A stretch of DNA of 42,626 nucleotides from Phycisphaerae bacterium (GTDB lineage: Bacteria; Planctomycetota; Phycisphaerae; UBA1845), in contig JAJDDY010000014.1 in assembly GCA_029260075.1 (NCBI GenBank), positions 1 to 42,626 on the forward strand, written 5' to 3'. Position numbers and translations under genes: made by a program. The notes under the pieces were generated by a model. That model had not been told where the DNA came from. It saw nothing but the letters and a program-made list of their open reading frames with translations, and searched no databases. Of the stretch, positions 13,525 through 32,536 are shown one piece after another. Within the stretch, counting starts at the first letter, position 1; every line of letters starts with the position of its first letter.

Positions 13525-13555
13525 TTTGGGTGGCCCATGGCTTTAGCCGTGGGGG
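13525..13555. repeat. Short hairpin repeat (family A), copy near S9 peptidase 3' end
   Basis: A 31-base sequence with a near-perfect 9-bp inverted repeat (CCCATGGCT / AGCCGTGGG, 13534-13553) lies 26 bases after the peptidase stop. It matches 32489-32519 at 28 of 31 positions. It may act as a transcription terminator or RNA-stabilising structure, although no U-run follows. Confidence 0.6.
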
Positions 13556-13607
13556 ACACGAATCGACGCTGGATTCGCCTCCCCAACTACTGAAGACGTG
13601 GCCACTT

Positions 13608-13742
13608 AGAACGTGTATGAGAAGCCTCTTGCCGAGCCGCGCCGGTGAGGAAGCGATCTGGGCTTGCGCGTAAAAACCGCTTCCTCACGGGCGCGGCTCA
13701 GTTCATCGCAGACCCTCTAACGCATCTTCTCACACACGTTCT
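13608..13742. repeat. Long-hairpin MITE-like element (family B), copy 1, with terminal inverted repeats
   Basis: The 17-base ends 13608-13624 and 13726-13742 are inverted repeats of each other at 16 of 17 positions (AGAACGTGTATGAGAAG on the left). Inside, arms 13634-13655 and 13678-13699 pair at 21 of 22 positions around a 22-base loop. Related elements occur at 14784, 19360, 25630 and 32341, with a half copy at 23056. Non-coding, intergenic, nested palindromes: the structure of a MITE or REP-like element. Confidence 0.75.
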
Positions 13743-13892
13743 TAGGCCAATCGTAATTCCTCGACGCAACGCTGACAAAGCTCCAGAAAATCCGGCTTCT
13801 ATCATTCCCATATTGTTACTGCATCAAAGATAAGTCTGACGGCGCCGGTGTTGTCAGGCCCATCTTCCGGACAAGGGTCGTCTATGGAGGAT

Positions 13893-14759
13893 TCAGTTGG
13901 GAGAAACGTGCGAACCATACGTTGGCGTTGGCGAACGGTGGGGCATTTCTGTGGCGGCCTTATACGCGAGACGGGTTCCGGCGATGATGAGCAGCGCCAG
14001 GAATGCGGTCTTGACGATTCGCGTAGGCAATCGATGGGTGAAGTGGCTTCCTATCCAGCTGCCGACGATTGCAAGCGGGGCAAGTGTGGCTGCGAGCATC
14101 AGTGAGCCATAATCGCTGCCACGGTCGACAATCAAGGAATAGTTCTTGCTGATTGCTCCGATGAAGCTCGTCGCGATGATGATCGTCGCGGAGTTGGCGA
14201 TGGCCGTTCGGATGGGCAGACCAAGAAGCCGGCGCTGCAGTGGTACGGCCAAGATGCCACCGCCGACGCCCAACAGGCCGGCCACCAAGCCGACCGGAAT
14301 GGCCACGACGCCTTTGATCATCAGTGACGGGCCGCGCGTTGAGTTCGACTTGTTCGCACCATTCGTCGAGTCGCTTCGTCGCAAGCGATACAGTTCGATC
14401 ATTGCGCTGGTGAGTACGAACGCCGCGAATAGGGCACGGAGGTAGGCTTCGCCTTCGTTTTGGAAAATGCTGCGTTCACTGACAATCACGCCGATGACGA
14501 CCGCGACCGCCGCCATCGGCAGCATGGCCATCACCGATCGTAGATCGATGGCGCCGGCCCGGCGGTGGCGGATGACGGCGGGGACGACCACGAAGAAGTT
14601 GACGATCATCGCGGCGGCCTGGTAGAGGTGCTGATTGGGGCCGAGGAATTCCGTCAGCGCGGGGATCATAATAATGCTGCCGCCGATGCCCAGCATTCCA
14701 CCGACAAGTCCCGCGGAGAGGCCGATCAGCGTTACGGTAACGAATTCCAACAGTCCCAA
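13893..14759 (-). CDS. TauE/SafE family anion permease
   Basis: 288 residues, polytopic. The protein shows the duplicated signature of the TauE/SafE (sulfite/organosulfonate exporter-like) family: GLSAGLVGGMLGIGGSIIMIP near the N-terminus and GLVAGLLGVGGGILAVPL in the middle, each starting one half of an inverted-repeat fold with about seven to eight membrane helices in total. Members export sulfite, sulfoacetate or other small anions across the inner membrane; the substrate cannot be read from sequence. Start is TTG 14759, preceded by GGAGG 10 bases upstream; no ATG fits. The C-terminal 20 residues are hydrophilic. The gene is flanked by long-hairpin elements on both sides and has no sulfur-metabolism partner beside it. 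Confidence 0.87.
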   Translation of the reverse strand: MGLLEFVTVTLIGLSAGLVGGMLGIGGSIIMIPALTEFLGPNQHLYQAAAMIVNFFVVVPAVIRHRRAGAIDLRSVMAMLPMAAVAVVIGVIVSERSIFQNEGEAYLRALFAAFVLTSAMIELYRLRRSDSTNGANKSNSTRGPSLMIKGVVAIPVGLVAGLLGVGGGILAVPLQRRLLGLPIRTAIANSATIIIATSFIGAISKNYSLIVDRGSDYGSLMLAATLAPLAIVGSWIGSHFTHRLPTRIVKTAFLALLIIAGTRLAYKAATEMPHRSPTPTYGSHVSPN

Positions 14760-14783
14760 GTTCGGCTCGCCTCCTTAGATCGC

Positions 14784-14880
14784 GCTTGAGAAGCCTCTTT
14801 CCGTGCCGCGCCTGCGAGAATCGGTTCGGTTTCGTAGGCAAAAACCGCTCCGTTACGGTTGCGGTTTGTCATGGCCCTGT
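14784..14880. repeat. Long-hairpin repeat family B, copy 2 (degenerate)
   Basis: Begins GCTTGAGAAGCCTCTTTCCG, matching the outer part of copy 1, and has the paired GCCGCG / CGGTTGCGG arms with AAAAACCGCT in the loop region. The arms have diverged and the far terminal repeat is not recognisable. It lies between the TauE/SafE gene and queA. Confidence 0.55.
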
Positions 14881-14930
14881 TCATGCAAGCTCGTAGCGGC
14901 TTCGGTCGTCGCAATAGTCGATTGCGGAGG

Positions 14931-16034
14931 TTACAAGATCAGCATCGCGTCGCCATAGCTGAAGAACCGGTATCGCTTGGCTACGGCGTGGTCGTATGCA
15001 CGTCGGATCCTGTTCGTTCCACCCAGGGCCATCACCAGCGCCAGGAGCGTACTCTTCGGCAAGTGAAAGTTCGTAACAAGTCCGTCGACTACATTGAACT
15101 TGTACGGCGGGCGAATGAAGATACTCGTTGTGGCGTCGCCGGTCGACAGCGGCGCGGCGCCGTTGTCGGTGGCGGCGGATTCGAGCGCGCGTACGCTCGT
15201 TGTCCCGACTGCGATCACCCGGCCACCCGTTTCGCGGCAACGACGAATGGCGTCCACGACGTTGGGTTCGATATGGTACGACTCCATATGCATGGTGTGC
15301 TGAGCGAGCTCGTTTACGCGTATTGGCTGAAACGTCCCCGACCCCACGTGCAAGGTGAGCGTGACCGTCTCAACGCCGGATTTGCGAATTCGATCGAGCA
15401 GTTCGTTGGTGAGGTGCAGACCGGCGGTGGGGGCGGCGATGGCGCCAGCCGCGTGTGCGTAGACCGTTTGATACCGATCGCGATCGTCTGAGCTTCGGGC
15501 ATCGCCGTCACGATTCCGACGGATGTAGGGTGGAAGCGGGACGTGCCCCACGCGGTTGAGTATGGCTTCTGTCGAACCGTCGCCCGTCACCTGAACACGC
15601 CACCGGCCGTCACCTAGGGATTCGATCAACTGAAGGTGCTCCGGAGCATCGACGTCTAATGTCAACTGCTCACCGGGTCGTAGCCGCCTCGACCCGGTGA
15701 GCATGACGATCCACTCGCCGGGTTCGGTCTCCCGTTCAAACAGCCCGCCGACCCGACCACCGGTCTCGCGTCGCGCCAGTAGTTTCGCCGGCAGCACTTT
15801 CGTGTCGTTGAGTACGAGCAGATCGCCGAGCTTCAGACGGGTGGGCAGGTCGGTGATCTTGCCATCGATCAGGCTGTCTTGCTTACGATCTACGCATAGC
15901 ATTCGTGAGCCATCGCGCTGAGCGAGCGGGTGTTGTGCGATCAGTTCGTCCGGAAGATCGTAATCGAGATCGTCTACGGTCTGCGGCGGCTTGCCGTTCG
16001 TCGTGTCACTCGGTTGGATTGCCGTTTCATTCAT
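14931..16034 (-). CDS. queA: S-adenosylmethionine:tRNA ribosyltransferase-isomerase
   Basis: 367 residues. QueA transfers and isomerises the ribosyl part of S-adenosylmethionine onto 7-aminomethyl-7-deazaguanine in tRNA, giving epoxyqueuosine at the wobble position of GUN anticodons. Family landmarks are all present: DYDLPDELIAQHPLAQRDGSRML at the N-terminus, LVLNDTKVLPAKLLARRETGG, YQTVYAHAAGAIAAPTAGLHLT, LHVGSGTFQPIRV, HTMHMESYHI, GTTSVRALES and the C-terminal NFHLPKSTLLALV. Length is slightly above the usual ~345 because of a short N-terminal extension. ATG 16034 is the start. It is divergent from the acyltransferase gene; no other queuosine gene is in the window. Confidence 0.96.
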   Translation of the reverse strand: MNETAIQPSDTTNGKPPQTVDDLDYDLPDELIAQHPLAQRDGSRMLCVDRKQDSLIDGKITDLPTRLKLGDLLVLNDTKVLPAKLLARRETGGRVGGLFERETEPGEWIVMLTGSRRLRPGEQLTLDVDAPEHLQLIESLGDGRWRVQVTGDGSTEAILNRVGHVPLPPYIRRNRDGDARSSDDRDRYQTVYAHAAGAIAAPTAGLHLTNELLDRIRKSGVETVTLTLHVGSGTFQPIRVNELAQHTMHMESYHIEPNVVDAIRRCRETGGRVIAVGTTSVRALESAATDNGAAPLSTGDATTSIFIRPPYKFNVVDGLVTNFHLPKSTLLALVMALGGTNRIRRAYDHAVAKRYRFFSYGDAMLIL

Positions 16035-16128
16035 GCGTTACTTGGCCGCTGCAACGTCGGCTTATCGCCGTCTGTGCGCTGCACGTGAATCCTGCTCATC
16101 GTGGTCACCCGTCTCGGTGCATGTTACG

Positions 16129-17100
16129 ATGGCGCCCATGAAACGGGAATCCCCGCGTCAGACTTGGCTTCGGGCCATGACCAAATCCAAGACCGGCGTG
16201 GTCGCGTGGGTGCTGTATGCGCTGCTCCGCTCGGTCTTCGCCATCCTTCAGATTTTTCCGATCGATTGGAATCTTGCGACCGCCCGCCGTCTCGCCAAAG
16301 TATGGCCCCTGATCACGAAGCGTCATCGACGCCTTGCGGTTGAGCACCTTACGCGCTCCTTTGGTGACGAGCTATCCCGCGACGAGATCGACCGAATCGC
16401 CGATCGTAGCCTGGCGAGCGTGGCCATGTTCGCTGTCGACGTGATCTGCCTTCCACGATTGCTCAATGCATTGACGTGGACGCGATATATCGACTTGAAG
16501 AATCTTGGTGAGGGGCTCGAGTTGATGCTATCCGGTCGCGGCGCAATCCTCGTGACCGGTCACTACGGTTCGTTTGAATTGATGGGGCATGTATTGGCTG
16601 CGCTGGGGTTCGACGTCGTCGCGGTCATGCGGCCACTCGACAACGTTTACATCAACCGATTCGTCGTGCAGAGTAGGCTAACGCATGGCTTGACGTTGAT
16701 CGACAAGAAGGGGGCCATGGAACATGCCGAATCGGTGCTGCGCGAGGGGCGACTGTTGGCGTTCATCGGCGATCAGGACGCTGGTCGAAAAGGGGTCTTC
16801 GTCGACTTCTTCGGCCGCCCCGCGTCGACCTACAAGTCGATCGGCTTGCTGGCCATGGCCACGCGCTGTCCGATCATCGTCGGGTACGCACGCCGGCAAG
16901 GCGATAAGGCCAAGTTCACCGCCGGCGTGCAGCGCGTGATTTATCCGCACGAGTGGGAAGATCGTAAGGACGCATTGAAGTGGATCACGCAGACATACAC
17001 CAGCGCGCTCGAAGAAATCGTCCGCGAAGACCCCGATCAATATCTGTGGATCCACCGGCGATGGAAGTCCGCGCCGCGCACGAAGCGAGCTGGTGCGTGA
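16129..17100 (+). CDS. LpxL/HtrB-type lysophospholipid (lipid A) acyltransferase
   Basis: 323 residues from ATG 16129 (an in-frame ATG at 16138 is equally possible; neither has a clear ribosome site). An N-terminal membrane-anchor helix (VVAWVLYALLRSVFAILQ) is followed by the acyltransferase fold with the catalytic HX4E box HYGSFE at residues 145-150, the DQDAGRKGVFVDFFGRPAST motif, and the C-terminal DQYLWIHRRWKSAP typical of the LpxL/LpxM family. Known members add secondary acyl chains to Kdo2-lipid IV-A at the cytoplasmic face of the inner membrane, so the gene suggests a lipopolysaccharide-bearing outer membrane. Other members act on glycolipids. The last codons overlap the first copy of a duplicated 28-base sequence. 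Confidence 0.9.
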   Translation: MAPMKRESPRQTWLRAMTKSKTGVVAWVLYALLRSVFAILQIFPIDWNLATARRLAKVWPLITKRHRRLAVEHLTRSFGDELSRDEIDRIADRSLASVAMFAVDVICLPRLLNALTWTRYIDLKNLGEGLELMLSGRGAILVTGHYGSFELMGHVLAALGFDVVAVMRPLDNVYINRFVVQSRLTHGLTLIDKKGAMEHAESVLREGRLLAFIGDQDAGRKGVFVDFFGRPASTYKSIGLLAMATRCPIIVGYARRQGDKAKFTAGVQRVIYPHEWEDRKDALKWITQTYTSALEEIVREDPDQYLWIHRRWKSAPRTKRAGA

Positions 17101-17172
17101 ATCCTTCCTCGCACCGATCGAAATGTCGAAACCCTTGGATCCTTAGCTGGTGCGTGAATCCTTTCTCGCACC
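17088..17172 (+). repeat. Direct duplication of a 28-base hairpin sequence at the acyltransferase 3' end
   Basis: 17088-17115 and 17145-17172 are 28-base copies differing at one position, with a 57-base period. Each contains GGTGCG and CGCACC as an inverted pair. The first copy covers the acyltransferase stop codon. They might form tandem terminator-like hairpins, or reflect slippage duplication. Confidence 0.6.
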
Positions 17173-17216
17173 CACTGACGCGGGAATCTCGCTGAAGCGA
17201 TTTGAAGAGCCGCTGT

Positions 17217-19244
17217 CTAGAATCCGTCGTTTGGAACAGCGCTGAAACCGATGCAAGCACCAACACAAGGCGGAAGAGGTTGGGGTGCCGGATCTTCCGT
17301 GAACGCCGCCGCGAGACCGGCGAAGTCGCGCAGATCAATATCGCGATCGTCATCAAAATCGAACGTGCCGATGCAATAGTCGGTTGATCCGCCTACGCCG
17401 GGACCGCTCACTGTCAGGCAATTCTTGAATCGCCAGTAGTCGACGAGGTCCACGTAGCAATTTCCATTCGTGTCACCGAGCGGACCTCCGACGGTGTTCG
17501 CTCGCGACCCCAGCGGAGTGAAGGCGCACTTGTCCAGTCGATTGGGTGCGCCGTCACCGTCGACGTCAGGGTCGCATTCATCGATCAGTTCGTTCAGGTC
17601 GAAATCGGGATCGCACTCGTCTGGATTGTCGTTGCCGTCGCAATCTGCACTTGTACCGGCGTCAATATCGCATCCGTCTGGTATCCCGGTAGAATTGCAA
17701 TCGCGCTGGCATTTATCGGGTACATCATTGCCATCGCAATCTTGAAACCCGCCCGTCGCCACGTCGTCTTCGTCGGGAATTCCATTGTCGTTGCAATCTC
17801 GAATTCCTATCCGCAGATAGTAGACATCCTGCTCTCCGTTGAATGTCGCGGCGTATGCTACGTTGACGCCCGAGTCGTCAGAGATCATGTCGTAGTAGCT
17901 GCCGAGTGAGCGATTCCGGAAGGGCCATCCGACGTGGCTGTCGAATACCGGGCTTACCGGGATGTTCTTGGACCATGTTTCGCCGGCGTCCGTCGAGAAT
18001 GCGTAGTACAGTTCAGATAGATTTTCGACGCCGGTGTTACGCGTGTCGTTCCATATAGCGTCAATGCGACCGTTCGGTGCCACCGACATCGTCCCGAACC
18101 ATTGCCACGCATCGTTGTCGGTTGGGTCGTCATTCACACGAACAGGATCGCTCCAGGTCTCACCGCCATCGGTGCTGCGCGCGAACCTGACGTCAAGTGG
18201 ACTCTGCAGCGTCGATTCACGCACCGATCCCAGGACGTAGACGCTTCCTCGTGTGGCTGTGTGTGAATGATCTGTCGCGATCCACGGCATGCCGAGTGGC
18301 CCGTGCTGGTTTGGGCCGCCCCCCCCAGGTTCGCCAAGACCAACGGATGTGCTGTCGCCGATCGTCGGCGAAGCGTTGGGATCCTGTGCGTTGCTACTCC
18401 AGGCTACTTCAAAGCCGCTAAAGAAGCCCCATGATGAGAAGTGGCCGACTACATAAACTCGGCCTGCAGGCCCCACCGACATTGTGCCGGAGCGAAACCA
18501 GGAGACGATGGGTGAGGAATTCGTGACTCCTCCGTCTGTAGACCGCACGAAGGCGCCGGAACAGCACGAGGCGCGTGGGCGCCACAAGGTGTAGATATTA
18601 CCTGCGCCAATACCGTCTGTGCGATCGATGACCATCCAGGGTAAAGTAAAGATATCCGTAGCCATATCGATCGGAGGATTCCAGCTCATTCCTCCGTCGA
18701 ACGAACGAAAGATTTGCGACGTTCGCCCGTCTACACTCAAATAGTAGAAGATGCCGTTCGCGTCGGAATCCACTACGGAGTTGTGATGATACACATCGGA
18801 TGTCAACGAGCCCGGTAGCGTCCACATTCTTCCGCCATCGTGGCTGTAGGCGACGCCGGCCCGAGCCTGATCTAGGGACACGGTATCGAACTGGCGCCAG
18901 CCGATGACAATTCGGCTGGGGTCGCGGGGATCGATGGCGATGGAGGGTTCGTTGTCCGCGTCACCCTGTATGTTATTGCCGAACTGGTCGACGTTGACCT
19001 GGACGCTTTCGAAAGCACCAAGTGTCCAAGATCCGGAATGGGAGGTCGCGCCTGCGGGCGGTGTCGAAGACCGCGGCATCCAAGGATCGCCCGGCGATTC
19101 GTGGTAAGTGGCTTGGACGGTTGCCTTGGTGTCAGCGGGTTGACCGGCCGCAGTCGTCTCCGGTGGTCCGCCGTGGCCGAGTCGACTGCCAACGAGAACA
19201 CACGGCACCAGCCATACCAGTCTCCCCATACCGTGTTTGCTCAT
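17217..19244 (-). CDS. Secreted BNR/sialidase-fold protein with DCN-type repeats and dockerin-like C-terminus
   Basis: 675 residues. Start ATG 19244 was chosen because it has an AAAAGG site and opens a signal peptide (MGRLVWLVPCVLVGS); the frame stays open further upstream but would run through the repeat at 19360-19470. Residues about 90-475 form a BNR/Asp-box propeller with five S-x-D-(G/A)-G boxes (SHDGGRMW, SFDGGMSW, STDGGVTN, STDGGETW, STDAGETW). At least one (STDGGVTN) lacks the Trp. The arginine triad of true sialidases was not identified, so sialidase activity is not claimed. DCNxNGxPDxCD-type repeats (about 480-545) and a dockerin-type pair (GDTNGNCYVDLVDYWRF; FDFDDDRDIDLRDFAGL, about 588-655) follow. 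Probably surface-exposed. Confidence 0.85.
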   Translation of the reverse strand: MSKHGMGRLVWLVPCVLVGSRLGHGGPPETTAAGQPADTKATVQATYHESPGDPWMPRSSTPPAGATSHSGSWTLGAFESVQVNVDQFGNNIQGDADNEPSIAIDPRDPSRIVIGWRQFDTVSLDQARAGVAYSHDGGRMWTLPGSLTSDVYHHNSVVDSDANGIFYYLSVDGRTSQIFRSFDGGMSWNPPIDMATDIFTLPWMVIDRTDGIGAGNIYTLWRPRASCCSGAFVRSTDGGVTNSSPIVSWFRSGTMSVGPAGRVYVVGHFSSWGFFSGFEVAWSSNAQDPNASPTIGDSTSVGLGEPGGGGPNQHGPLGMPWIATDHSHTATRGSVYVLGSVRESTLQSPLDVRFARSTDGGETWSDPVRVNDDPTDNDAWQWFGTMSVAPNGRIDAIWNDTRNTGVENLSELYYAFSTDAGETWSKNIPVSPVFDSHVGWPFRNRSLGSYYDMISDDSGVNVAYAATFNGEQDVYYLRIGIRDCNDNGIPDEDDVATGGFQDCDGNDVPDKCQRDCNSTGIPDGCDIDAGTSADCDGNDNPDECDPDFDLNELIDECDPDVDGDGAPNRLDKCAFTPLGSRANTVGGPLGDTNGNCYVDLVDYWRFKNCLTVSGPGVGGSTDYCIGTFDFDDDRDIDLRDFAGLAAAFTEDPAPQPLPPCVGACIGFSAVPNDGF

Positions 19245-19564
19245 TCTGCCTTTTCCAGGAAGATAACGCTGCTTTAAATTCCCGTCCTTTTCAAGGAGGG
19301 GTAAGGGGAGGTTCTCCTTAGACTGAAGAACCCCCGTCGGTCTCCCCTTGTCAAGAGGGTGTCCAGAAGGGTCTTTCCGAGCCGCGCTCATAGGGAAGCG
19401 GTCCACTTGTGAGGCTGAAGACCGCTCCCTCACGGTCGCGGCTCGGTTCATAATGTTCCGTCTTGTACATGCTTCAAGGGGGCAAGAGGACAAATCAGCC
19501 TTATCAGAAACTACAGTAGATGGGGTTGTCGTGCTCATCGTCGTTCTCGTCCTTCCCGTCGCTC
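19245..19564. other. Intergenic region with repeat-derived hairpins
   Basis: Contains a purine/pyrimidine-rich stretch (about 19275-19360) with the partly inverted segments AAGGAGGGG and CCCCTTGTCAAG, and then long-hairpin copy 3 (19360-19470). It should also hold the promoter of the BNR-fold gene. No gene supported. Confidence 0.45.
19360..19470. repeat. Long-hairpin repeat family B, copy 3
   Basis: Arms 19379-19403 and 19420-19444 are inverted repeats at about 19 of 25 positions, with the family core GAGCCGCG ... AGCGGTC. Outer sequence AGAAGGGTCTTTCCG resembles copy 1. It lies upstream of the BNR-fold gene and downstream of the Cys-rich protein gene. Confidence 0.65.
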
Positions 19565-22615: not shown

Positions 22616-23055
22616 TGATGTGCTCCGTTTCCAGCGGCGATTCCGCGTGACGGTAGCCGTGCGGCGCCCCCGGCCTGACGATCGTAGGCCCTACCCGGGT
22701 GGAAATCCAACAATTCTTGGACGTTCACGCAGGTCCGGTTCTACCTGTCGAGCGCACCTCGGGTGCGGATCGTCGCCAAAAGTTTCGTTGATTACGACGC
22801 ATTGGTGCGAAAGGCTTCCGCGGATAGCCACCGCAAGACAGACCAGACGCTCCAAGATGACGGACGCACCACAGACCAGTATCGCTGCTCAATCTATTCG
22901 ACACCGCTGCGTCTCATCAGGCGGAAGAAAACTAGATTTCTTTTTGCGGGACGGTCGGGTGTCGCGTTAGTGGGAGTCTCACAAGGCACGTCTGTCTCAG
23001 CAGTGCCGGTCCATCGCATCTGAGTCTGAGTTGGTGTTCGAGAGAGGGGTGCTTC
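22616..23055. other. Intergenic region between the Cys-rich protein gene and the IS5 element
   Basis: No supported gene. The short open frames here lack ribosome sites and recognisable sequence. It should contain the promoter of the 19565-22615 gene. A repeat-B half copy begins at 23056. Confidence 0.4.
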
Positions 23056-23084
23056 GAACCGGGCCGTGACTGTCAGGGAGCGGT
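23056..23084. repeat. Half copy of long-hairpin repeat family B abutting the IS5 element
   Basis: These 29 bases match one arm of copy 3 (the reverse complement of its right arm region) at about 25 of 29 positions, ending AGGGAGCGGT. The match stops within a few bases of the probable IS5 end. The other arm is not found on the far side of the IS. Confidence 0.55.
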
Positions 23085-23108
23085 TAGTGCGTGTTCAAAA
23101 AGGGTAGT

Positions 23109-23893
23109 TTACGCATAGCTGAGTCGTCGGGTCATGAGGTTGATCATCGCGAGATAGATCATTGACTCGCTGGTTTCGGTCAGTTCTTCATAGTCCTTGC
23201 TGAGACGACGATACCTGCCCAGCCATCCGAATGTCCGTTCGACGACCCAACGGTGCGGAAGCACGTTGAAGCCTCTCACGTCGTCACATCGTCTGACGAT
23301 TTCCAATAGCCACCCGCCGCAGTTGCGAACCCAGTCAATCAACATGCCCGAATATCCGCCGTCAGCCCAGATCAATTGCAGACGTTCGCACTTTCCCTTG
23401 AGCTTGGTCAATACCATTTTCGCACCGTCGCGGTCCTGAATGTCGGCCGGGTGAACGACCACCGCCAGAATCAAGCCCAGCGTGTCTACGACAATATGAC
23501 GCTTGCGACCCTTGATCTTCTTGCCAGCATCGTAACCGCGAACCCCTTTTTTTCCGTGGTTTTCACGCTTTGACTGTCAATGACGGCTGCGCTCGGACTG
23601 GCTTCACGACCCTCAGCCACACGCAACTCGTCTCGAAGCAAATCATGGATGTCCCGCCAAAGACCTTCGCGGCGGAATCGACAGAGGTAGTGATACACGA
23701 TGTTCCACTTCGGAAAGTCATGAGCCAAAAGCCGCCATGCACAACCGCTGCGCAGCAAATACATGATCGCATTCAGCACCTCGCGCATCGACACCTCGCG
23801 CGGACGCCCGCCCGGTTTGGCCGGCGGAATCAAGTCCTCGATCAGCTTCCATTGCGCATCCGTCAAATCACTCGGGTAAGGCTTCCGTGCCAT
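23109..23893 (-). CDS. IS5-family transposase made by programmed -1 frameshift
   Basis: Two overlapping frames. The first starts at ATG 23893 (AGGAGG 10 bases upstream) with [15 protein letters not shown], the DUF4096-like N-terminus, and reaches [11 protein letters not shown]; without a shift it ends at 23486. The second frame carries [17 protein letters not shown]..., [30 protein letters not shown] and [23 protein letters not shown] to the TAA at 23109. The junction contains the heptamer A AAA AAG (complement of 23536-23542), a classic -1 slippery site; shifting there joins the frames exactly as family alignment demands, giving about 261 residues. The DDE acids lie in VIDSQS, ADGGYSG and VVERTFG. 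Because the slip site is canonical, I read this as programmed recoding of an intact gene, not a pseudogene. Confidence 0.88.
23536..23542 (-). promoter_or_regulatory. A AAA AAG slippery heptamer for -1 frameshifting
   Basis: Seven A's followed by four G's on the minus strand. In the zero frame the codons are gAA AAA AAG; a -1 slip moves reading to GGG GTT CGC GGT TAC, the conserved G-V-R-G-Y of the transposase. A downstream stimulatory stem-loop was not searched in detail. Confidence 0.75.
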
Positions 23894-23917
23894 GACTCGA
23901 TCCTCCTGATCAACACG

Positions 23918-24239
23918 ATTGGATTCCCAAGGACGTTCGGCTCCGCCGAACACCGCCTACGCCATCCAGACGTCACAATGGATGACCGCGACAGTCGAAT
24001 CGGAAGAGGACCCTGGTCGGTTTTCCGCAATCGCCACAAATTCCACGGTTCGCGCTTCATGCCCTCGATTTGCATATTTCAAGTATTGCTGGCGCGCGAC
24101 GTGCCAGTGAGTACGGCAGCGTCCTAGCGCGATGTGATATCGGCTTCGACGAACGAGTGTCGTCGACGTGCAGCCGAAGACTTGGCTGGGCGCTGTGTAT
24201 TCGCTGCCTTCATCGGTCGATGTGCCTAAGGAGTGCATC
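23918..24239. other. Intergenic region upstream of the multihaem cytochrome
   Basis: No supported gene. A minus-strand frame (stop near 23957) encodes a vaguely protein-like THWHVARQQYLKYANRGHE stretch but has no start or recognisable family, so it could be a decayed gene. TAAGGAG at 24227-24233 is the ribosome binding site of the cytochrome gene. Confidence 0.4.
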
Positions 24240-25562: not shown

Positions 25563-25629
25563 GTTACTCGCGATGGGGACTGTTGCGGGAGCGGTAGGCC
25601 GCCTGTCAGCTGGTCACGCGGAAAGCTTA

Positions 25630-25706
25630 GAGCGTTTTCAAGAGGCTTCGTTCGGAGCCGTACGCGTTAGGAAGCGGTCCGTGTTCGCGGAATCCGTCCT
25701 CGCTTG
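25630..25706. repeat. Long-hairpin repeat family B, copy 4
   Basis: GAGCGTTTTCAAGAGGCTTC at the left resembles the IS5 end and the other copies; GGAGCCG, TTAGGAAGCGG and an inverted CGCTTGCTAA follow. The right terminal part is missing or runs into the 3' end of the radical SAM gene. It lies between two convergent genes. Confidence 0.6.
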
Positions 25707-27557
25707 CTAAGCGGACGCGCTCAATGTTGCACCCTTAGTAGCCGCACGCGGCACGTTGATCTTGGTGAATACGTCGTCGTACTGGCGGGCGAGGTAGTCG
25801 GTGGGGGCTCCGCCGTGGAGGTGGTTCCAGGGGAAGACTTCGTCCGGGTCGCGTTCGCGATGGGCGTACCATGCGGGGTCGATTCCGGTGTCTCCGAAAC
25901 TGCGTCGCCATCGTTCAGCGTCGAAGCACTCGTCCCAGCCGTCGAACCGTGCGCCGGAGCGGTAGGCGTGTTCGATCACGTCAGCCAAGCGGCGATCTCC
26001 GCGTGCGAAGACGCCTTCGAGAATGGATCGCTCGACGTTGTGCGTTTTGATGCGCACCGGGCCGCGTTTCTTCTTGCCCTTGCGCGAACGCTGGACCGAG
26101 TTGAGTAGCCCGTTGAGTCGAATTCGTGCTTCGTGGAAATAGCCGGCTTCGGGTTGCGCGGCCCATTGGAACGGTGTATAGGGTTTGGGCACCAGCCAAC
26201 CGACGGCGGCGTTGACGTTGGCTGGGCCGCCACTGATCTCGCGGCGGGCTTCGCTGACCTCGCGGGCCAGGCGGACGATGCCGTCGATGTCGTCCGGTCG
26301 TTCCCCGGGGAATCCGCACATGAAGTAGAGTTTGACCGAGCGCCACCCGGCTTTGTAGGCGGCGCGAACGCCGTCGAGAAGATCACCGTCGGTGACGTGC
26401 TTACGAATGGCGGCGCGCATGTCGTCGTTGGCCGCTTCGACGGCCATGGTGAGCCCGCTCTTGCGAACCGAGTTCACCATCCACGGAATGTTCTGGAGCA
26501 TCTTGTCGACGCGCAGCGAGGGTACGGAGATGTTGACGCGACGCTCGGCGAATTGTGCGTTGGCCCGCGTGGACAGCTCGCGAAGGTCGGGGTAGTCAGC
26601 CGTCGACAGTGAGAGCAAGCCGAACTCGTCCACACCCGTCGCAGCGTACATTTCTTCAGCCATGTCGAGAATGCGGTCGACGGATCGAAGGCCGAGCGGT
26701 CGCTTCGTATACCCGGCGTGGCAGAAGCGGCAGCGCTGGGGACAACCGCGCATGATCTCAATAGCGAAGCGATCGTGAACGACTTCGACGAATGGAACGA
26801 TGGGGCGCACGGGGAAGGGTGCGTTTTCAAAATCCATCGTCTTGCACCGCTCGATGGTGGTCGGCAGGCTCGCGTCCATCGGCGTCACGGAACGAATCGT
26901 GCCGTCGCCGTGGTAGCTCGCTTCATAGCGCGACGGGGCGTAGATCCATTCGAATCGCCGGGCCATCGCGTCGATCATTTCACGACGACGCATCCCGCCG
27001 TCTTGAAATTCCTTGTATGCAGCCACGATCGCCGCCATGGATTCCTCACCGTCACCAAGGACGACCAAGTCGAGAAACGGAGCCATAGGCTCGGGGTTGT
27101 CTGCTTGGGGTCCGCCGGCGATAACGAGCGGGTGGCTATCGTCACGGTCGGCGCTGCGCAGGGGGATTCCCGATAAATCGAGCAGTTGAAGCACGCAGGT
27201 GTAGGCCATCTCATATTGAAGCGAGACGGCGAGGATGTCGGCAGAGACCACAGGCTGTCGGGTGTCCCATGTGAACAGCGGAATCCTACGCTCGCGCATG
27301 ACGGACTCGGCGTCACCCCACGGACAAAACACGCGCTCGGCGCAGCAGCCGTCGGTGTGGTTGACGAGCCAGTACAAGATTTGGCACCCCAGATGGCTCA
27401 TCCCAATAGTGTACGTGTCGGGAAAAGCGATGGCGACGCGGACGTCGGCCTTGTTCCAGTCGCCGCGGGAAACGAGCTGGTTGACTTCCCCACCGATATA
27501 TTGCCCAGGTCGTACGACGTAGGGCAGCAATTCATTACTCACTCGTTCTTGTAGCAC
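25707..27557 (-). CDS. B12-binding-type radical SAM protein (TIGR03960-like)
   Basis: 616 residues. The N-terminal ~240 residues form the cobalamin-binding-like Rossmann region (VRVAIAFPDTYTIGMSHLGCQILYWLVN, VIAGGPQADNPEPMAPFLDLVVLGDGEE). The radical SAM core follows with the [4Fe-4S] cysteines Cys272, Cys276 and Cys279 (GCPQRCRFC), then AGYTKRPLGLRS and SLSTADYPDL, with a C-terminal region including WNHLHGGAPTDYLARQYDD. This matches the TIGR03960 family, whose members are often adjacent or fused to a TIGR03936/DUF2344 partner; no partner is present here. The exact reaction is unknown. Start is GTG 27557 or GTG 27542; neither has a good ribosome site. Confidence 0.87.
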   Translation of the reverse strand: MLQERVSNELLPYVVRPGQYIGGEVNQLVSRGDWNKADVRVAIAFPDTYTIGMSHLGCQILYWLVNHTDGCCAERVFCPWGDAESVMRERRIPLFTWDTRQPVVSADILAVSLQYEMAYTCVLQLLDLSGIPLRSADRDDSHPLVIAGGPQADNPEPMAPFLDLVVLGDGEESMAAIVAAYKEFQDGGMRRREMIDAMARRFEWIYAPSRYEASYHGDGTIRSVTPMDASLPTTIERCKTMDFENAPFPVRPIVPFVEVVHDRFAIEIMRGCPQRCRFCHAGYTKRPLGLRSVDRILDMAEEMYAATGVDEFGLLSLSTADYPDLRELSTRANAQFAERRVNISVPSLRVDKMLQNIPWMVNSVRKSGLTMAVEAANDDMRAAIRKHVTDGDLLDGVRAAYKAGWRSVKLYFMCGFPGERPDDIDGIVRLAREVSEARREISGGPANVNAAVGWLVPKPYTPFQWAAQPEAGYFHEARIRLNGLLNSVQRSRKGKKKRGPVRIKTHNVERSILEGVFARGDRRLADVIEHAYRSGARFDGWDECFDAERWRRSFGDTGIDPAWYAHRERDPDEVFPWNHLHGGAPTDYLARQYDDVFTKINVPRAATKGATLSASA

Positions 27558-27769
27558 TGGATTTATTCCGTGTTAGATTGCATATTGTCGAATGGACCCA
27601 GATTTCGGAAGTTATCGCACTATTGCTGCTAACTTTGCAGCATGATACGGTCCGACAGAGGAATAGTATAGCCGTTAGGCGGATTATTGGGCGATCGAGC
27701 GGGAGCGTAGTTTATCGGCCAGAAAACCGTTGCATTCGGTCAGACAATTGTTTACGATTGCTGGTGCAG

Positions 27770-28678
27770 ATGGTTCGTACTAAACACACATCCCGGGTTG
27801 CGGCTCGAGTTGGCGGGCTTGCAGGGCGTCGTCGCGGCGCCACGCTGATCGAATTGCTTGTGGTGATCGCGCTGATCACGCTGCTCATTTCGATCTTGAT
27901 ACCCGGTTTGCGCGGATCAATGAAGCTCGCTTCCGCAACGCTTTGCAAGCACCACCTCCGGGAGATCGGGCTCAGCCTGATGATGTACCGCATCGATAAC
28001 GATGGCTGGCTTCCGGTCGAAGATCCGCCGGATGGCACGATGCAGGCGGCGGACACCGTTGACCCGTGGTTCGAGAAGTTGTTCCCAACCTACCTGAGCG
28101 ATCCGAACATCTTGACGTGTCCTGATGATCCACATCGTTATCGTATGGCGAAGTTGAATTCGATTGATGACGATCCGAACGTGGGCAACTATGCAAGCTA
28201 CGGGATCAATGGTTTTCCGATGCAGGGTCTAGGCGGTGGGTTGGCCCATGTCGATCGGCTGCGTCCACATCGCCCGAGCAACACCATCCTGGTTGCAGAC
28301 TTGGGGCCCGACCGCGAGGCCCGAACGAGCAGCGCCGTACAGACCGTGACCGGCCCGACGAGGAATTCGAGCGTGCTCTCGTGGGACGATGGGTACGACC
28401 CGTTTGCCTCGAGTGTTTCCGCTCGGCCTTGGCTTACGACGCGACATGGCGCGGGCATCCACATGTTGACGCTAACCGGTGGTGTTCGAGCCGCTCAGAC
28501 GCAAAAAATCATGCGCGAACCGATCAAGCGTTATTATGCCGATTGCGCCGCTGGCGGCTGCACGATGTGTAATCAACTGCACCTTCCTCACTACTCGTTC
28601 GCCAAGGACCAGCTCTTCTGGTGGACGGGGTCGACGAGCGCGGATGGCGTGACGGCGTTCATCCGTCCGGGAGGGTAG
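27770..28678 (+). CDS. Prepilin-like protein with type IV N-terminal cleavage/methylation motif
   Basis: 302 residues from ATG 27770. A basic leader ends in RRRG and the motif G-ATLIELLVVIALITLLISIL follows, with the Glu at +5 needed for prepilin peptidase processing and methylation. The hydrophobic helix is followed by the usual long N-terminal helix and a globular C-terminal domain (HHLREIGLSLMMYRIDNDGWLP, YGINGFPMQ, NTILVADLG). It belongs to the large group of planctomycete pseudopilin-like proteins near the DUF1559/type II secretion G class. Its role in a pilus or secretion system is unproven. The longer frame (from 27578) would put 64 residues before the leader and is rejected. A zinc-ribbon membrane protein follows after 13 bases. 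Confidence 0.85.
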   Translation: MVRTKHTSRVAARVGGLAGRRRGATLIELLVVIALITLLISILIPGLRGSMKLASATLCKHHLREIGLSLMMYRIDNDGWLPVEDPPDGTMQAADTVDPWFEKLFPTYLSDPNILTCPDDPHRYRMAKLNSIDDDPNVGNYASYGINGFPMQGLGGGLAHVDRLRPHRPSNTILVADLGPDREARTSSAVQTVTGPTRNSSVLSWDDGYDPFASSVSARPWLTTRHGAGIHMLTLTGGVRAAQTQKIMREPIKRYYADCAAGGCTMCNQLHLPHYSFAKDQLFWWTGSTSADGVTAFIRPGG

Positions 28679-28691
28679 GGCGTCCCGGCTG

Positions 28692-29195
28692 ATGCGACCC
28701 GCCCCGACTCGCGCAACTCCTCCAAGACCATCCCCGCAGCACCGGCGCACGGTCCGAATTGTCCGGAAGCGCCGAATGTCCCGAGCCGCCGTTTTTTGCC
28801 TTGTCCTGGGTGGTTCCGTGATCGTTCTGCTGCCGTTTGTTTGGCATGCTTTGCAACGCGCCCCGTTGCCCTCAGTCGCTGAACGTACTTTGGAAAACGT
28901 GGTTCTTCAATGGAAATGTGACGCGGGCCATACGTTCGAGGCACCGGGACACGTTGATCCCGTGTTCTGCAAGACGTGCAACAACAATGCATATCCGGTG
29001 ACCGGTTACGCTTGTCCTCGGCATGGCAGGTTTCAGGTTCAGGTTAAGTTCGAGCGTGCGGACGACGGCTCGTTGAGGACGGCTGCGGTGCGTCTGATGG
29101 GTCGTGATTGGGCGAGCGAGGCTGAGGGCGTCCGTTGCCCGCGCTGCGAACGCAGGCTTAAGTACGAGCAGCGCGACCCGTTCGGAACACCGTAA
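28692..29195 (+). CDS. Membrane-anchored zinc-ribbon protein of unknown function
   Basis: 167 residues. A basic N-terminus is followed by a single membrane helix (AAVFCLVLGGSVIVLLPFVW) and a soluble domain with four Cys/His pairs (KCDAGHTFEAPG, CKTCNN, CPRHGRF, CPRCERR), which suggests zinc ribbons. An in-frame ATG at 28776 (MSRAAVF) could be the true start, just before the helix. It lies 13 bases after the prepilin-like gene on the same strand, so the two are probably co-transcribed, and the protein may assist or accompany the pseudopilin. No family recognised. Confidence 0.7.
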   Translation: MRPAPTRATPPRPSPQHRRTVRIVRKRRMSRAAVFCLVLGGSVIVLLPFVWHALQRAPLPSVAERTLENVVLQWKCDAGHTFEAPGHVDPVFCKTCNNNAYPVTGYACPRHGRFQVQVKFERADDGSLRTAAVRLMGRDWASEAEGVRCPRCERRLKYEQRDPFGTP

Positions 29196-29269
29196 CGGAG
29201 TGCCGACGAAGCCTTATTTCGCGTGTATCCCTTGGTTCGCACGGGCGGGCGTTACGCCTTGCGGTCCTG

Positions 29270-30298
29270 TTACGGGTCTTGCTTGGCGAACACCTCCGGC
29301 AGCCGAAAGTCCGCCAGGAACACCTGCGATTCGTCGAGTCCGCCGCGCTTGCTTGTCCACATCAGCCTCTTCCCATCGGCACTGAACACGGGAAGTCCGT
29401 CAAAGGCTTCGTCGAACGTGATACGCGTCGTGTATTTTCCGTCGAGGGTCATCATGTGTAGATCGTAGTTGGGTCGTCCGCGATGGTTTGCCTGCGTGAA
29501 GATGAAGCATTGACCCGAGGGATGGAAATAGGGGCACCAGTTGAACAGTGCATTGTCCGTGAGTGCGTGGTCGCCCTTGCCGTCGATTCCGACCACCCGA
29601 AGTTGTAGGTCCATTTCGCCGTCGTTGCGTCGATCGCCGCGGTAGAGAATCGTCTTGCCGTCGGGCGATATAAAGGGTCCGCCGTCGTAACCCTTGCCGT
29701 GGGTGATGCGGCGTTTGTTCTTGCCGTCCGCGTCCATGATATACACCTCGAGGTCGCCGTCCCGCTGTGACGTGAACACGATGTGACGTCCGTCCGGAGA
29801 GTAGGCGCCCTCGGCGTCATACCCCGGCGCGGTCGTGAGGCGGCGGCGTTTCGAGCCGTCGACGTTGGCTTCGAAAATGTCCATGTAGTTGTCGAATTCC
29901 CATGAGTATTCGTCAGAGTCAGCCGTCGGTTTGTGTTCAGCCGATTCCGGTCGAAGATGACTCGATGCGAAGATAATCTTCCGCCCGTCCGGCCTGAAGA
30001 AGCCGCACGTGCAAGCGCCCTTACCAGTGCTGACCATCTTCGGAGCCCGTGTGCGCAGGTCCATGGTGTAGATTTGGTATTCCGTTTTCCCAATCGGTGT
30101 GGCCTGGAAGATGATGGTCTTATGGTCCGGTGAAAAATAGGCCTCTCCGGCCTTGATGAAGCCCATACTACCGAACGTGATCTGTTCGATGTTCGTGATC
30201 GCGGTTTCTTTCGCGTTCGCGTTCGCGTTCGCGTTCGGATTCGGCTCGGCGCCGAGTGGAAGGGTCAGACAGATGAGTATTGGTACGCCTAGGATCAT
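29270..30298 (-). CDS. TolB-like (PD40) beta-propeller exported protein
   Basis: 342 residues with a short signal peptide. The propeller has at least six blades, each marked by a PD40-type sequence: FSPDHKTIIF, FRPDGRKIIF, YSPDGRHIVFTSQRDGDLEVYIMD, ISPDGKTILY, FHPSGQCFIF and FSADGKRLMWTSKRGG. Such proteins are periplasmic binding scaffolds related to TolB; without Tol-Pal genes nearby it is not called tolB. ATG 30298 was preferred over the adjoining GTG 30301 because GAGGA is better spaced from it. Just after the signal peptide lies an Asn-Ala dipeptide repeat encoded by a hexanucleotide tandem repeat. Confidence 0.85.
   Translation of the reverse strand: MILGVPILICLTLPLGAEPNPNANANANAKETAITNIEQITFGSMGFIKAGEAYFSPDHKTIIFQATPIGKTEYQIYTMDLRTRAPKMVSTGKGACTCGFFRPDGRKIIFASSHLRPESAEHKPTADSDEYSWEFDNYMDIFEANVDGSKRRRLTTAPGYDAEGAYSPDGRHIVFTSQRDGDLEVYIMDADGKNKRRITHGKGYDGGPFISPDGKTILYRGDRRNDGEMDLQLRVVGIDGKGDHALTDNALFNWCPYFHPSGQCFIFTQANHRGRPNYDLHMMTLDGKYTTRITFDEAFDGLPVFSADGKRLMWTSKRGGLDESQVFLADFRLPEVFAKQDP
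30210..30233. repeat. Hexanucleotide microsatellite TTCGCG x4
   Basis: Four perfect copies in the minus-strand propeller gene encode Asn-Ala repeats. A unit of six bases changes length without shifting the frame. Confidence 0.85.
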
Positions 30299-30520
30299 CA
30301 CAATTCCTCGTAGTAGTGGAAACTGCCCGTTGACTGCTGTTCATTGATCTACACGACGACGAATGCGAACCGGGCGAACGCACCGCCCGGGCAGGCTAGT
30401 GCATCAAAGGCGACGGTGCAAGATGGCGCGGGGCATACGGAATAATGCTTGCGCCCGCGCGTCGGCTCCGTCGCCACCGGAGGGTCGGATTGATCGTTCG
30501 GTGGGATCGGCGCACGCGAC

Positions 30521-31087
30521 TCAGCCCAAATCGTGTTCGTCCGCGCTTGGTTTGGAGGTCCATCGCCGGCCGGCAATCGGTACCACGCACTCGAGGGCTT
30601 GCTTGTCGCGGCGACGCACAGCCAGTTCGTTGATGGTCACATTCATATCCGGATGAACCACGTCGCCGGCGATTTCGGCAAGCGGTTCGAGCACGAAGCG
30701 ACGCTCGTGCAAACGCGGGTGTGGCAGAGTCAACGCGATGTCATGCGATTGAACGCCGCCGAAGAGCAGCAAATCCAGGTCGAGCGTGCGTGCGGCGAAT
30801 CGCTGGGTTCGCGTGCGTCCATGTGCTAGCTCGATGGCGAGCAAAATGTCGAGCAACTCTCGCGGCGACACCGTGCAACGCGCGGCGATGACGCTGTTCA
30901 GGAAATTCGGTTGATTCAGTGGGCCACCCACCGGACTCGTTTCGTACAGTGAGGCGATGCCGCCATCGAAGTCCACTGCGATGCGGTCGTGTTCGTCTAG
31001 GACGTACACGGCCGACTGAAGCGTGGTGCGTCGATCGCCAAGATTTGCACCAAGGCCGATGTACGCGACGATCGCGTTGTCATCCAT
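30521..31087 (-). CDS. folK: 2-amino-4-hydroxy-6-hydroxymethyldihydropteridine pyrophosphokinase
   Basis: 188 residues. HPPK transfers pyrophosphate from ATP to 6-hydroxymethyl-7,8-dihydropterin in folate synthesis. Family marks: YIGLGANLGDRRTTLQSAV at the N-terminus, SLYETSPVGGPLNQPNFLNSV, the catalytic signature TLDLDLLLFG whose two Asp residues bind Mg2+, and LPHPRLHERRFVLEPLAEIAGD. ATG 31087 is 12 bases after the dapL stop, so both are likely in one operon with dapL first. No other folate gene is in the window. Confidence 0.95.
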   Translation of the reverse strand: MDDNAIVAYIGLGANLGDRRTTLQSAVYVLDEHDRIAVDFDGGIASLYETSPVGGPLNQPNFLNSVIAARCTVSPRELLDILLAIELAHGRTRTQRFAARTLDLDLLLFGGVQSHDIALTLPHPRLHERRFVLEPLAEIAGDVVHPDMNVTINELAVRRRDKQALECVVPIAGRRWTSKPSADEHDLG

Positions 31088-31099
31088 CGGGTTCTCGTC

Positions 31100-32323
31100 C
31101 TACAACGACAATTTCGCTATGCGATCTACGGCTTCTTGCGTTCGCTCGTCGTCGACGGTCAGGGCGAATCGTACGAACCCCTCACCGTAGCGACCAAACC
31201 CTACGCCGGGAACGACGACGACGTCGGCTTCGGCGAGGATGCGCGTCGACAGTGTCATAGACTTGACACCCGGTGGACACTTGGCCCATACATATATCGT
31301 GGCGTCCGGGGCGTTGATTGACCAGCCAGCCGATCGCAAGCCGTTAATCAAGATGTCGCGCCGTGTGCGATACTTGGCGATCTGGTTTCGGATTTCCGGT
31401 TTCGACGCACCGCGCAACGCTTCGATACCGGCGTGTTGCAGCGGTAGGAAAACCCCGGAATCGAGATTGCTCTTGACGGTCGCTAGGGCGGCGAGGGCGT
31501 CGGCGTTGCCGACGGCGAACGCCACGCGCCATCCGGTCATGTTGAATGTCTTGGAGAGCGAATGGAATTCGATCGCGTGTTCTTTCGCACCGTCAACTTG
31601 AAGAATGCTCGCGGGTGGCTCGTCGAAGTAGACTTCGCTGTACGCAGCGTCCTGAGCGATGAGCAGGTCGTACTCACGTGCGAATTCCAAGGCCGTCTCG
31701 AAGAACGCGAGCGACGCCATCGCCGTGGTGGGGTTGTTCGGATAGTTCAGCCACATCAGTCGCGCGTTGCGCGCCACGTCGCTTGGTATCTCGTCAAAAT
31801 CCGGAAGCCAACAGGTGCTCTCACGAAGCGGCATGGCGTGGCAGCGCCCGCCGGCAAGAACCGTACCCGAGACGTACACGGGGTATCCGGGGTCGGGGAC
31901 GAGGACGGTATCGCCCGGGTTCAGTAGCGCCAACGGAAGGTGGCCAATGCCTTCTTTGGCGCCGAGAAGGACGATCACCTCCGAGTTCGGATCCAAGTTT
32001 GGGCAGGTTTCGTTTCCATCGGTTCCGTGAGATCGCTCGCCACAAAACTCGGCGAACGCGGTGCGAAGCTCGAGCGTGCCCACGCTGGAAGCGTAGCGGT
32101 GGTTGTCCGCGTCGCCGATTGTCTCGCGGACGCGGTCGATAATGAACGGGGCTGTAGGTTGATCCGGATCCCCGATACCGAAGTCGATGACGTCGCGTCC
32201 GGCTTCGATGGCGGCGCGTTTGTGTCGATCGATCTCGACGAAGAGGTAGGGCGGGAGCTGGTCGAGGCGGTCCGATCGCCAGTGGGTCATCGTAAGTTCG
32301 TCCATGATCGGTAATCGCTTCAT
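31100..32323 (-). CDS. dapL: LL-diaminopimelate aminotransferase
   Basis: 407 residues. This class I PLP aminotransferase converts tetrahydrodipicolinate directly to LL-diaminopimelate, bypassing the succinylated intermediates, for lysine and peptidoglycan. Seen: DFGIGDPDQPT, NHRYASSVGTLELRTAFAEF, the active-site lysine near residue 258 in HSLSKTFNMTGWR, WLNYPNNPT and GFGRYGEGFVRFALT. This route is typical of planctomycetes, chlamydiae and plants. ATG 32323 is chosen; 32305 and 32290 are alternatives. A longer frame reaches 32464 but runs through repeat-B copy 5. A related-fold alternative (other class I aminotransferase) is less likely because of the IGDPDQPT and length match. folK follows after 12 bases. 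Confidence 0.87.
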   Translation of the reverse strand: MKRLPIMDELTMTHWRSDRLDQLPPYLFVEIDRHKRAAIEAGRDVIDFGIGDPDQPTAPFIIDRVRETIGDADNHRYASSVGTLELRTAFAEFCGERSHGTDGNETCPNLDPNSEVIVLLGAKEGIGHLPLALLNPGDTVLVPDPGYPVYVSGTVLAGGRCHAMPLRESTCWLPDFDEIPSDVARNARLMWLNYPNNPTTAMASLAFFETALEFAREYDLLIAQDAAYSEVYFDEPPASILQVDGAKEHAIEFHSLSKTFNMTGWRVAFAVGNADALAALATVKSNLDSGVFLPLQHAGIEALRGASKPEIRNQIAKYRTRRDILINGLRSAGWSINAPDATIYVWAKCPPGVKSMTLSTRILAEADVVVVPGVGFGRYGEGFVRFALTVDDERTQEAVDRIAKLSL

Positions 32324-32340
32324 CTGGTCGCAAGTGTTAG

Positions 32341-32472
32341 CACACGTGCAAGAAGCGTCTTGCCGAGCCGCGCCCGTGAGGAGGCGATCCGGGCTCGCGC
32401 GAGAAAACCGCTTCCTCGCGGGCGCGGTTCGGTTCATCGCCGACCGTTCAATACGTCTTCTCAAACACGTTG
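32341..32472. repeat. Long-hairpin repeat family B, copy 5
   Basis: Arms 32365-32386 and 32409-32430 pair at about 19 of 22 positions around a 22-base loop. The right outer end CTTCTCAAACACGT (32457-32470) pairs imperfectly with ACGTGCAAGAAG (32344-32355). It is closest in sequence to copy 1 and lies just upstream of dapL, where the hairpin could sit in the 5' leader or promoter. Confidence 0.7.
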
Positions 32473-32488
32473 TATAGTCTATTCCATT

Positions 32489-32519
32489 TTTGGGTAGCTC
32501 ATGGCTTTCGCCGTGGGGG
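32489..32519. repeat. Short hairpin repeat (family A), second full copy
   Basis: Matches 13525-13555 at 28 of 31 positions. The inner stem CATGGC/GCCGTG remains. It lies just 3' of the minus-strand gene ending at 32537 and next to family-B copy 5. Confidence 0.6.
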
Positions 32520-32536
32520 CGTCGACTCGGCCACGG

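Follow-up and report, generated by a model that had tools for sequence, protein, structure and literature searches.

A composite repeat of transposon-like ends and an inverted REP pair in a Phycisphaerae genome, and REP-associated transposases in frame within alaS and other host genes

A hairpin-forming repeat of about 135 bp recurs along contig JAJDDY010000014.1 of a Phycisphaerae bacterium (assembly GCA_029260075.1; 4.92 Mb, 93 contigs), and its structure raises the question of what kind of element it is and by what means it could have spread. The original prediction, made from the letters of this contig, had called it a "non-autonomous MITE or REP-like family", i.e., either a miniature inverted-repeat transposable element (MITE) or a repetitive extragenic palindromic (REP) sequence. 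Both names turned out to apply. The element is very probably a composite mobile repeat, in which a shell made of transposon ends surrounds two REP units in inverted orientation. Like a MITE, the shell has target duplications, and insertion sequences (ISs) with like ends are present in relatives; the inner hairpin consists of paired REP units, and a REP-flanked Y1 transposase is encoded elsewhere in the genome.

The window analyzed here is the whole contig (C6, 42,626 bp). The genome it belongs to is referred to as G000 and other G-numbers denote relatives; comparisons were made with a family set of 51 genomes and a phylum set of 392 genomes. Shells were studied in a 614-kb sample of the own genome, window included, which was chosen around matches resembling one shell type (A1), so that shell proportions in it are biased.

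Anatomy of the repeat

An iterated profile run over the 614-kb sample yielded 124 non-overlapping matches (118 at E < 0.001), six of which lie in the window. The profile recovers the five copies listed in the original prediction, at 13605, 14774, 19354, 25626, and 32337, but two of these are only diverged or partial, and a half copy at 23026-23093 had not been listed. Copy 1 (13605-13745, plus strand) has an A1 shell. Its target, C-TTA-G, occupies positions 13605-13609 and is repeated at 13741-13745, with the element itself at 13609-13741. The outer ends, AGAACGTGTATGAGAAG and AGAACGTGTGTGAGAAG, match as inverted repeats at 16 of 17 positions, and 21 of 22 inner-arm positions are complementary, exactly as had been claimed. 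The cargo, a pair resembling a REPIN (REP doublet forming a hairpin), extends from 13634 to 13699, with arms at 13634-13655 and 13678-13699. The predicted fold of this copy has an energy of −78.9 kcal/mol (z −8.35), and none of 200 shuffled sequences folded as well. The same was true of copy 5 (32337-32471, plus strand; z −6.2), an A1 element with a REP pair that is 82% identical to copy 1 (13606-13740 versus 32337-32471). Copy 3 (19354-19473, plus strand) is likewise an A element with a REP pair, and its 87-nt core is 74% identical to that of copy 1. Copy 2 (14774-14896, plus strand) is a diverged A element, matched by the profile at 14774-14866 on the plus strand (model positions 1-94) and at 14777-14896 on the minus strand, while copy 4 (25626-25719, plus strand) is a partial A element that aligns to model positions 1-91. 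The half copy (plus strand) consists of one shell end and one REP arm, and directly adjoins an IS remnant described below. Copies in the window are located between genes, two of the six between convergent open reading frames (ORFs). The statement that all are intergenic was thus nearly correct, except that copy 4 shares 13 bp with the stop end of a radical-SAM ORF (25707), whose end it may supply, and that the REP unit is found in frame inside genes elsewhere in the genome.

A search of the whole genome with the hairpin arm GAGCCGCGNCCGTNAGGNAGCGG gave 476 + 464 = 940 matches at two mismatches or fewer, compared with 0 + 0 for the reversed pattern, so the absence of further copies, named beforehand as an outcome that would speak against a repeat family, was not observed. 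The REP unit is 23 nt long and consists of a GAG head, preceded by a variable base, and a mini-hairpin, CCGC-GA-CC-GTNA-GG-GA-GCGG; a lone arm is predicted to fold by itself, as the three-base head GAG followed by ((((..((....))..)))). We found 93 inverted arm pairs in the sample, with a loop of 20 nt in 53 pairs and of 31 nt in 26. A short headed palindrome, high copy number, and inverted pairs with a spacer are the hallmarks of REPs and REPINs; the head, GAG, is not the tag of the GTAG or the CGTC superfamily. The arm is matched in 39 of the 51 family genomes (≤2 mismatches; 0 to 2 matches per genome in the reversed control), and arm numbers within this one family range from 0 to 940. At one mismatch or fewer, the unit is present in 24 of the 392 phylum genomes, own genome included, and in other planctomycetes it occurs, single or paired, without a shell.

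The sequences around the REP pairs are of two kinds. When 80 bp on each side were aligned to consensus ends (cut-off 0.2; best shuffled flank 0.30, 95th percentile 0.06), both ends of one and the same shell were recognized in 70 of the 93 pairs (A1, 36; A2, 14; B, 20). At this lenient cut, 22 of the remaining pairs had one end or mixed ends, and one pair had none. A1 ends read CTNAG|AACGTGTGTGAGAAG and B ends read CTAG|TGCTCTGTCAC. The same REP cargo thus occupies two shells, which have their arms in common and are unrelated in their ends. Conversely, a REP arm lies within 130 bp of 50 of the 51 A1 ends and 22 of the 25 B ends in the sample.

Shell ends and the insertion sequences that match them

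If CTNAG were part of a mere inverted repeat, its middle base at one end would be complementary to that at the other, while duplication of a target would make the two bases identical. In the 49 copies in which both A ends could be aligned, the middle base was identical in 28 and complementary in 8. The expected number of identities is 13.7, and none of 20,000 permutations reached 28. The excess of identity indicates that shell A moved as a transposon. Shell A can be described as a MITE of an IS5-family insertion sequence, with ends GAACGTGTGTGAGAAG and a C-TNA-G target of which TNA is duplicated; its movement would have occurred in trans. Duplication of TNA within C-TNA-G would fit one IS5 group, IS1031.

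Autonomous elements with like ends and a like target were seen in several relatives. In G033, there are 52 matches to the IS end GAGGGTGTGTGAGAAGC, which is present at both termini of the element (one match in the reversed control). Among the 39 flanks that were read in this genome (19 five-prime and 20 three-prime), the T, A, and G of TNAG were present in 39 and the leading C in 32. Four ISs of relatives that have both ends on one contig measure 869, 844, 874, and 868 bp, with equal left and right TNA in three of the four. One such end, GAGCGTGTGTGAGAAG, is identical to the A1 shell end except for one base in 16. The best DDE_Tnp_1 match of the own genome falls within the window, at 23145-23564, and belongs to an IS5-family remnant, the one recognizable end of which (23087-23104, plus strand) follows GTTA directly after the half copy. 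Two minus-strand ORFs of this remnant encode the N-terminal part of a transposase (23486-23896; DUF4096; positions 1-114 of the NCBIfam model IS5_3, NF033580) and, in another frame, its C-terminal part (23109-23474; DDE_Tnp_1; positions 140-257). They score 117 and 93.6 bits, respectively, against a cut-off of 110. The change of frame is near a minus-strand run of A residues (approximately 23486-23560), as in elements with programmed frameshifts.

Shell B ends were matched in 15 of the 51 family genomes, and a corresponding IS was found at one locus, L297 in G464, where the ends CTAGTGCTTCGTCA (at 296) and CTAGTGCTTTGTCAC (ending at 1529) lie 1.2 kb apart around transposase ORFs. The N-terminal ORF best fits NCBIfam IS630, with 63.3 bits over 97 of 299 model positions (the whole-protein cut-off is 100). 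IS630 elements choose a CTAG target. The L297 element is likely the partner of shell B, which would then be a second MITE family. We examined 27 B loci outside the own genome and found paired ends within 330 bp in ten. The REP unit studied here is the cargo in three of these (L290, L296, and L308); in six (L288, L295, L300, L306, L310, and L312), the shell holds other hairpins, as judged by eye, and one (L305) contains none. L310 carries a hairpin, GGCTTTAGCCGTGGGG, that is also present in the window, and L295 has apparently half of it. The B shells of relatives offer the clearest evidence that shell and cargo can come apart.

REP-associated transposases inside host genes

Six Y1_Tnp matches are present in the own genome. 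One of them, at C54:129300-129491, is preceded by three tandem plus-strand REP arms and followed by one minus-strand arm, and the domain together with its flanking arms is contained in a single reading frame that starts out as alanyl-tRNA synthetase and resumes as such after the insert (G000:C54:127635-131159, locus L122). The Pfam alaS model matches this frame in three pieces (positions 1-263, followed by the insert, then 263-374 and 370-539), and the REP arms are read through as PSRDRKEA and PLPYGRGS peptides. A Y1 HUH domain with its catalytic tyrosine, in a gene placed between inverted, genome-abundant REPs, is what defines a REP-associated tyrosine transposase (RAYT). Of the own-genome Y1 loci, L053 and L054 are the only ones that contain arms, and only in L054 do the arms directly flank the domain; loci L049-L052 are without a REP arm and were dropped as candidates for cognate RAYTs. 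The presumed cognate RAYT of the own genome is not free-standing but lies in frame inside alaS, between REP units. The interrupted alaS is the sole one found, though a second is possible because the assemblies are 63-97% complete. In seven genomes that carry the insert, each genome's alaS matches are confined to one contig and one frame, while the alaS of G033 is uninterrupted.

The protein encoded by the alaS insert has a match in 20 of the 51 family genomes. Among RAYT relatives in named genomes, we examined the best 80 of 425. An open frame shared with a neighbouring gene flagged 26 of these 80 loci, before six (L212, L219, L225, L241, L252, and L269) were judged by eye to be chance frames and left uncounted. 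With each locus counted once, we arrive at 26 RAYTs in planctomycetes and their allies that are in the same open frame as a host gene: 11 in alaS (L203-L209, L215, L216, L232, and G000), nine in valS (L214, L220, L223, L224, L246, L248, L277, G019, and G457), and six in others, namely two type ISP restriction genes (L211 and L221), a DUF1156 gene (L226), an MmeI-type methylase gene (G016, L134), purH of the own genome (L053:475-2832, G000:C88), and a mutS gene that the RAYT precedes (G028, L137). A Pfam host domain was found in 26 of 26, and host sequence is present on both sides in 22 of 26; in L207, L211, and L221 the contig stops shortly past the RAYT, leaving only the upstream host side visible, and the mutS case is one-sided. 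There, the RAYT precedes MutS domain I and may be a separate upstream gene. Y1_Tnp appeared in the same whole-ORF scan as the host domain in 19 of 21 cases; L122 and L053 show it only in separate scans. One alaS frame, that of L209, holds two Y1 stretches.

REP units accompany these guests. All 20 accepted loci from the best 80 of 425 have at least two arms (≤4 mismatches) within 400 bp, and at the same stringency 49 of the 80 loci have a REP unit no more than 400 bp from the RAYT. Spacings between same-strand neighbouring REPs in 17 host ORFs are a multiple of three in 21 of 22 instances. At site 1 of alaS, G015 and G029 are RAYT-free, G029 having only REP-like coded residues there; site 2 is RAYT-free in the site-1 carriers G000, G011, G013, G017, and G027. 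The Y1 transposase in purH is flanked by a different repeat, which reads GTGFQPV and HRLEAGAT, and arrays of other repeat-coded peptides are found beside the Y1 transposases of L137 and L134.

In a tree of 55 rows, a clade (99/84) unites six of the eight RAYTs at alaS site 1, and another group (92/82) joins six of the nine valS RAYTs to one stand-alone row. The remaining RAYTs of both kinds are located elsewhere, including two valS RAYTs in a distant lineage. Six host labels change 12 times on this tree, compared with 20.7 times when shuffled, and 20 of 52 inner branches are weak. The clustering and the number of label changes suggest that residence in a host gene looks mostly inherited, with several separate entries. 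In ten pairs formed by five alaS site-1 RAYTs, there were 0.68-0.81 synonymous and 0.17-0.28 non-synonymous changes per site, compared with 0.59-0.70 and 0.08-0.18, respectively, for the host part before the guest in the same pairs. The guest therefore changes faster than its host, with the protein still conserved. The guests seem long established and under maintenance. Although synonymous sites have almost saturated, the catalytic residues H89, H91, and Y149 show no variation (12 of 12 and 43 of 43). The predicted fold (mean pLDDT 82; below 50 for residues 17-31) superimposes on the IS608 transposase (Z 15.7, 2.4 Å, 110 residues) and on the REP-bound RAYT 4er8 (Z 10.3, 2.6 Å, 114 residues). 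A search for in-frame start codons (ATG, GTG, or TTG) over the guest's first ten codons and the 45 that precede it came up empty in six of 16 carriers, which makes separate translation unlikely in those six. At least two REP arms were found in 12 of 12 family genomes with a close RAYT (E < 1e-30) versus 26 of 39 others (Fisher one-sided p 0.017, Mann-Whitney p 0.009, both uncorrected for kinship and assembly incompleteness).

Competing explanations and known systems

The history that we propose is one in which REP pairs would have been placed inside palindromic MITEs, the resulting composites would then have been copied as whole units by IS transposases in trans, and the REP cargo would thereby have been spread by two kinds of system. 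It is RAYT action that would have put the cargo in and the enzymes of ISs that would have moved the composites; the alaS RAYT may have served these REPs, and any of this may still happen. Several observations weigh against such a history. The sole IS of the A kind seen in the own genome is the remnant with one recognizable end, so that a mobilizer was not seen intact, and shell and IS have only their terminal bases in common (about 16-18 for A). The clearest carriers of A-type and B-type ISs, G033 and G464, are without the REP arm. No orthologous empty site is at hand for one MITE copy, a synteny search not having been made. For shell B, the duplication test found the same base in 4 of 17 copies (p 0.23), an outcome that is expected because the flanking CTAG is palindromic. 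The alaS guest scores 21.9 bits with NCBIfam REP_Tyr_transpos (NF047646) against a cut-off of 80, and is therefore called a RAYT by role and not by model. REP arms, at least two, also remain in those 26 of 39 family genomes that have no close RAYT. Finally, A shells without a REP are almost absent from the sample, and in 178 kb of two relatives (G022 and G461; contigs with element matches) both of the two paired shells contained one. Because of this, a history in which one ancestral composite was copied many times, or in which the core was exchanged between A and B, fits too.

Three simpler explanations were weighed against the composite. One could regard the hairpin as the MITE's own interior and REPs found elsewhere as broken MITEs, as might be suggested by the presence of at least one recognized end, at the lenient cut, in 92 of the 93 REP pairs of the sample; this is very improbable in view of the single and paired units that lack such ends in other planctomycetes, the proximity of the unit to RAYTs, and its presence in a second shell with unrelated ends. 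The opposite simplification, a plain REPIN family moved by RAYT only, whose outer inverted repeats would be a preferred palindromic target, has a precedent in the REP dimers within long palindromes of Anabaena variabilis and Halothiobacillus neapolitanus, as reported in PMC3733652. We consider it just as hard to credit, since duplicated CTNAG borders the A ends, which also agree with genuine ISs in end sequence and target, and B ends flank an IS630-like gene in G464. Slightly less remote, but still improbable, is that the hairpins are retained for a function at the RNA or DNA level (as terminators, mRNA stabilizers, or supercoiling sites) and that their mobility is old history. The strong predicted folds and the positions between genes, some of them between convergent ORFs, would suit such a role; however, no Rfam family matched the window at gathering thresholds, and arm numbers vary from none to hundreds within one family. 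A blastn search of a plasmid collection gave no match.

As to the guests, we lean towards the broader view that, in Phycisphaerae and allies, REP-associated Y1 transposases are long-term in-frame guests of housekeeping enzymes. They would be kept under purifying selection, with REPs as translatable linkers, in an intein-like refuge without splicing, while the REPs themselves would multiply into the hundreds via IS5-type and IS630-type shells. The sites concerned would be two internal sites and one near the C-terminal part in alaS, the interval between SDQW and YPERYAK in valS, purH, restriction/methylase genes, and perhaps mutS. If this is true, a host cannot kill its guest by frameshift or nonsense mutation without losing an essential enzyme.

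The elements thus combined are of known kinds, a conclusion that is well supported. REPINs and RAYTs have been described before (PMC3116915, PMC2817692), and PMC3733652 reports that REPs occur in planctomycetes and inside genes, tRNA synthetase genes among them, that inverted repeats flank RAYT genes, and that two species have REP dimers embedded in longer palindromes; intragenic REPs and REPs within palindromes are therefore not new. The present elements resemble the REPINs and RAYTs of PMC3116915 and PMC2817692 in the inverted pair of headed palindromic units, the fold-back spacer, the high copy number, and the Y1 transposase flanked by inverted REPs. They differ in the IS5-type or IS630-type ends around the pair, in the head (GAG, not GTAG or GTGG), and in the location of the RAYT, which is in the alaS frame and not free-standing. 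Closest in layout are GTAG-15 of A. variabilis and CGTC-1 of H. neapolitanus, where, according to PMC3733652, a REP pair sits in the middle of a palindrome that is (almost) never found without it. Here, in contrast, the palindrome consists of transposon ends, as evidenced by target duplication and the full ISs of relatives, and one palindrome type holds different hairpins across genera. Rickettsia palindromic elements and intragenic REPs are likewise palindromic repeats in frame inside genes, tRNA synthetases included (PMC3733652), but the planctomycete host frame holds a whole transposase domain and not a repeat alone.

Bacterial MITEs of IS5 and IS630 type share with our elements the small size, lack of coding capacity, terminal inverted repeats, target duplication (for A), and a partner IS with like ends; the difference is that the interior here is a REP pair and not an IS remnant. 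Neither a RAYT gene inside a host reading frame nor a REP pair inside identified IS ends was found in the passages and search listings consulted, which came from mostly open-access literature. The greatest surprise comes from the RAYTs that lie in frame in aminoacyl-tRNA synthetases. These bear on why transposase-like RAYTs persist as vertically inherited genes, a question that becomes directly testable here since transposase and essential enzyme are joined in one frame. REP pairs that use the ends of two unrelated transposon families would have a concrete route to very high numbers, and the composite suggests an answer to the puzzle, already in the literature, of REP dimers in longer palindromes.

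Other dispersed repeats were noted in the course of this work. A second hairpin repeat (GGGTGGCCCATGGCTTTAGCCGTGGGGG...) adjoins MITE copies in the window, at 13529-13604 and approximately 32491-32536, and is also the cargo of a B shell in G021. In own-genome locus L036 (3333-3625), it is immediately adjoined by a full A element on one side and by the right half of a further A element on the other; a reading in which it splits an A element there did not hold. A further dispersed palindrome, GGTGCGTGAATCCTTTCTCGCACC, occurs at window positions 17088-17115 and 17145-17172 and in L031, L036, and L020. Two more repeat types, CTAGTGCATCACC... and GAGCCCCGAGCGCAAGCGAGCGG, have related arms in other surroundings (L010 at approximately 6706-6830 and L020 at approximately 16002; L017 at 11296, L025 at 8631, and L040 at 7599), and are perhaps further shells.

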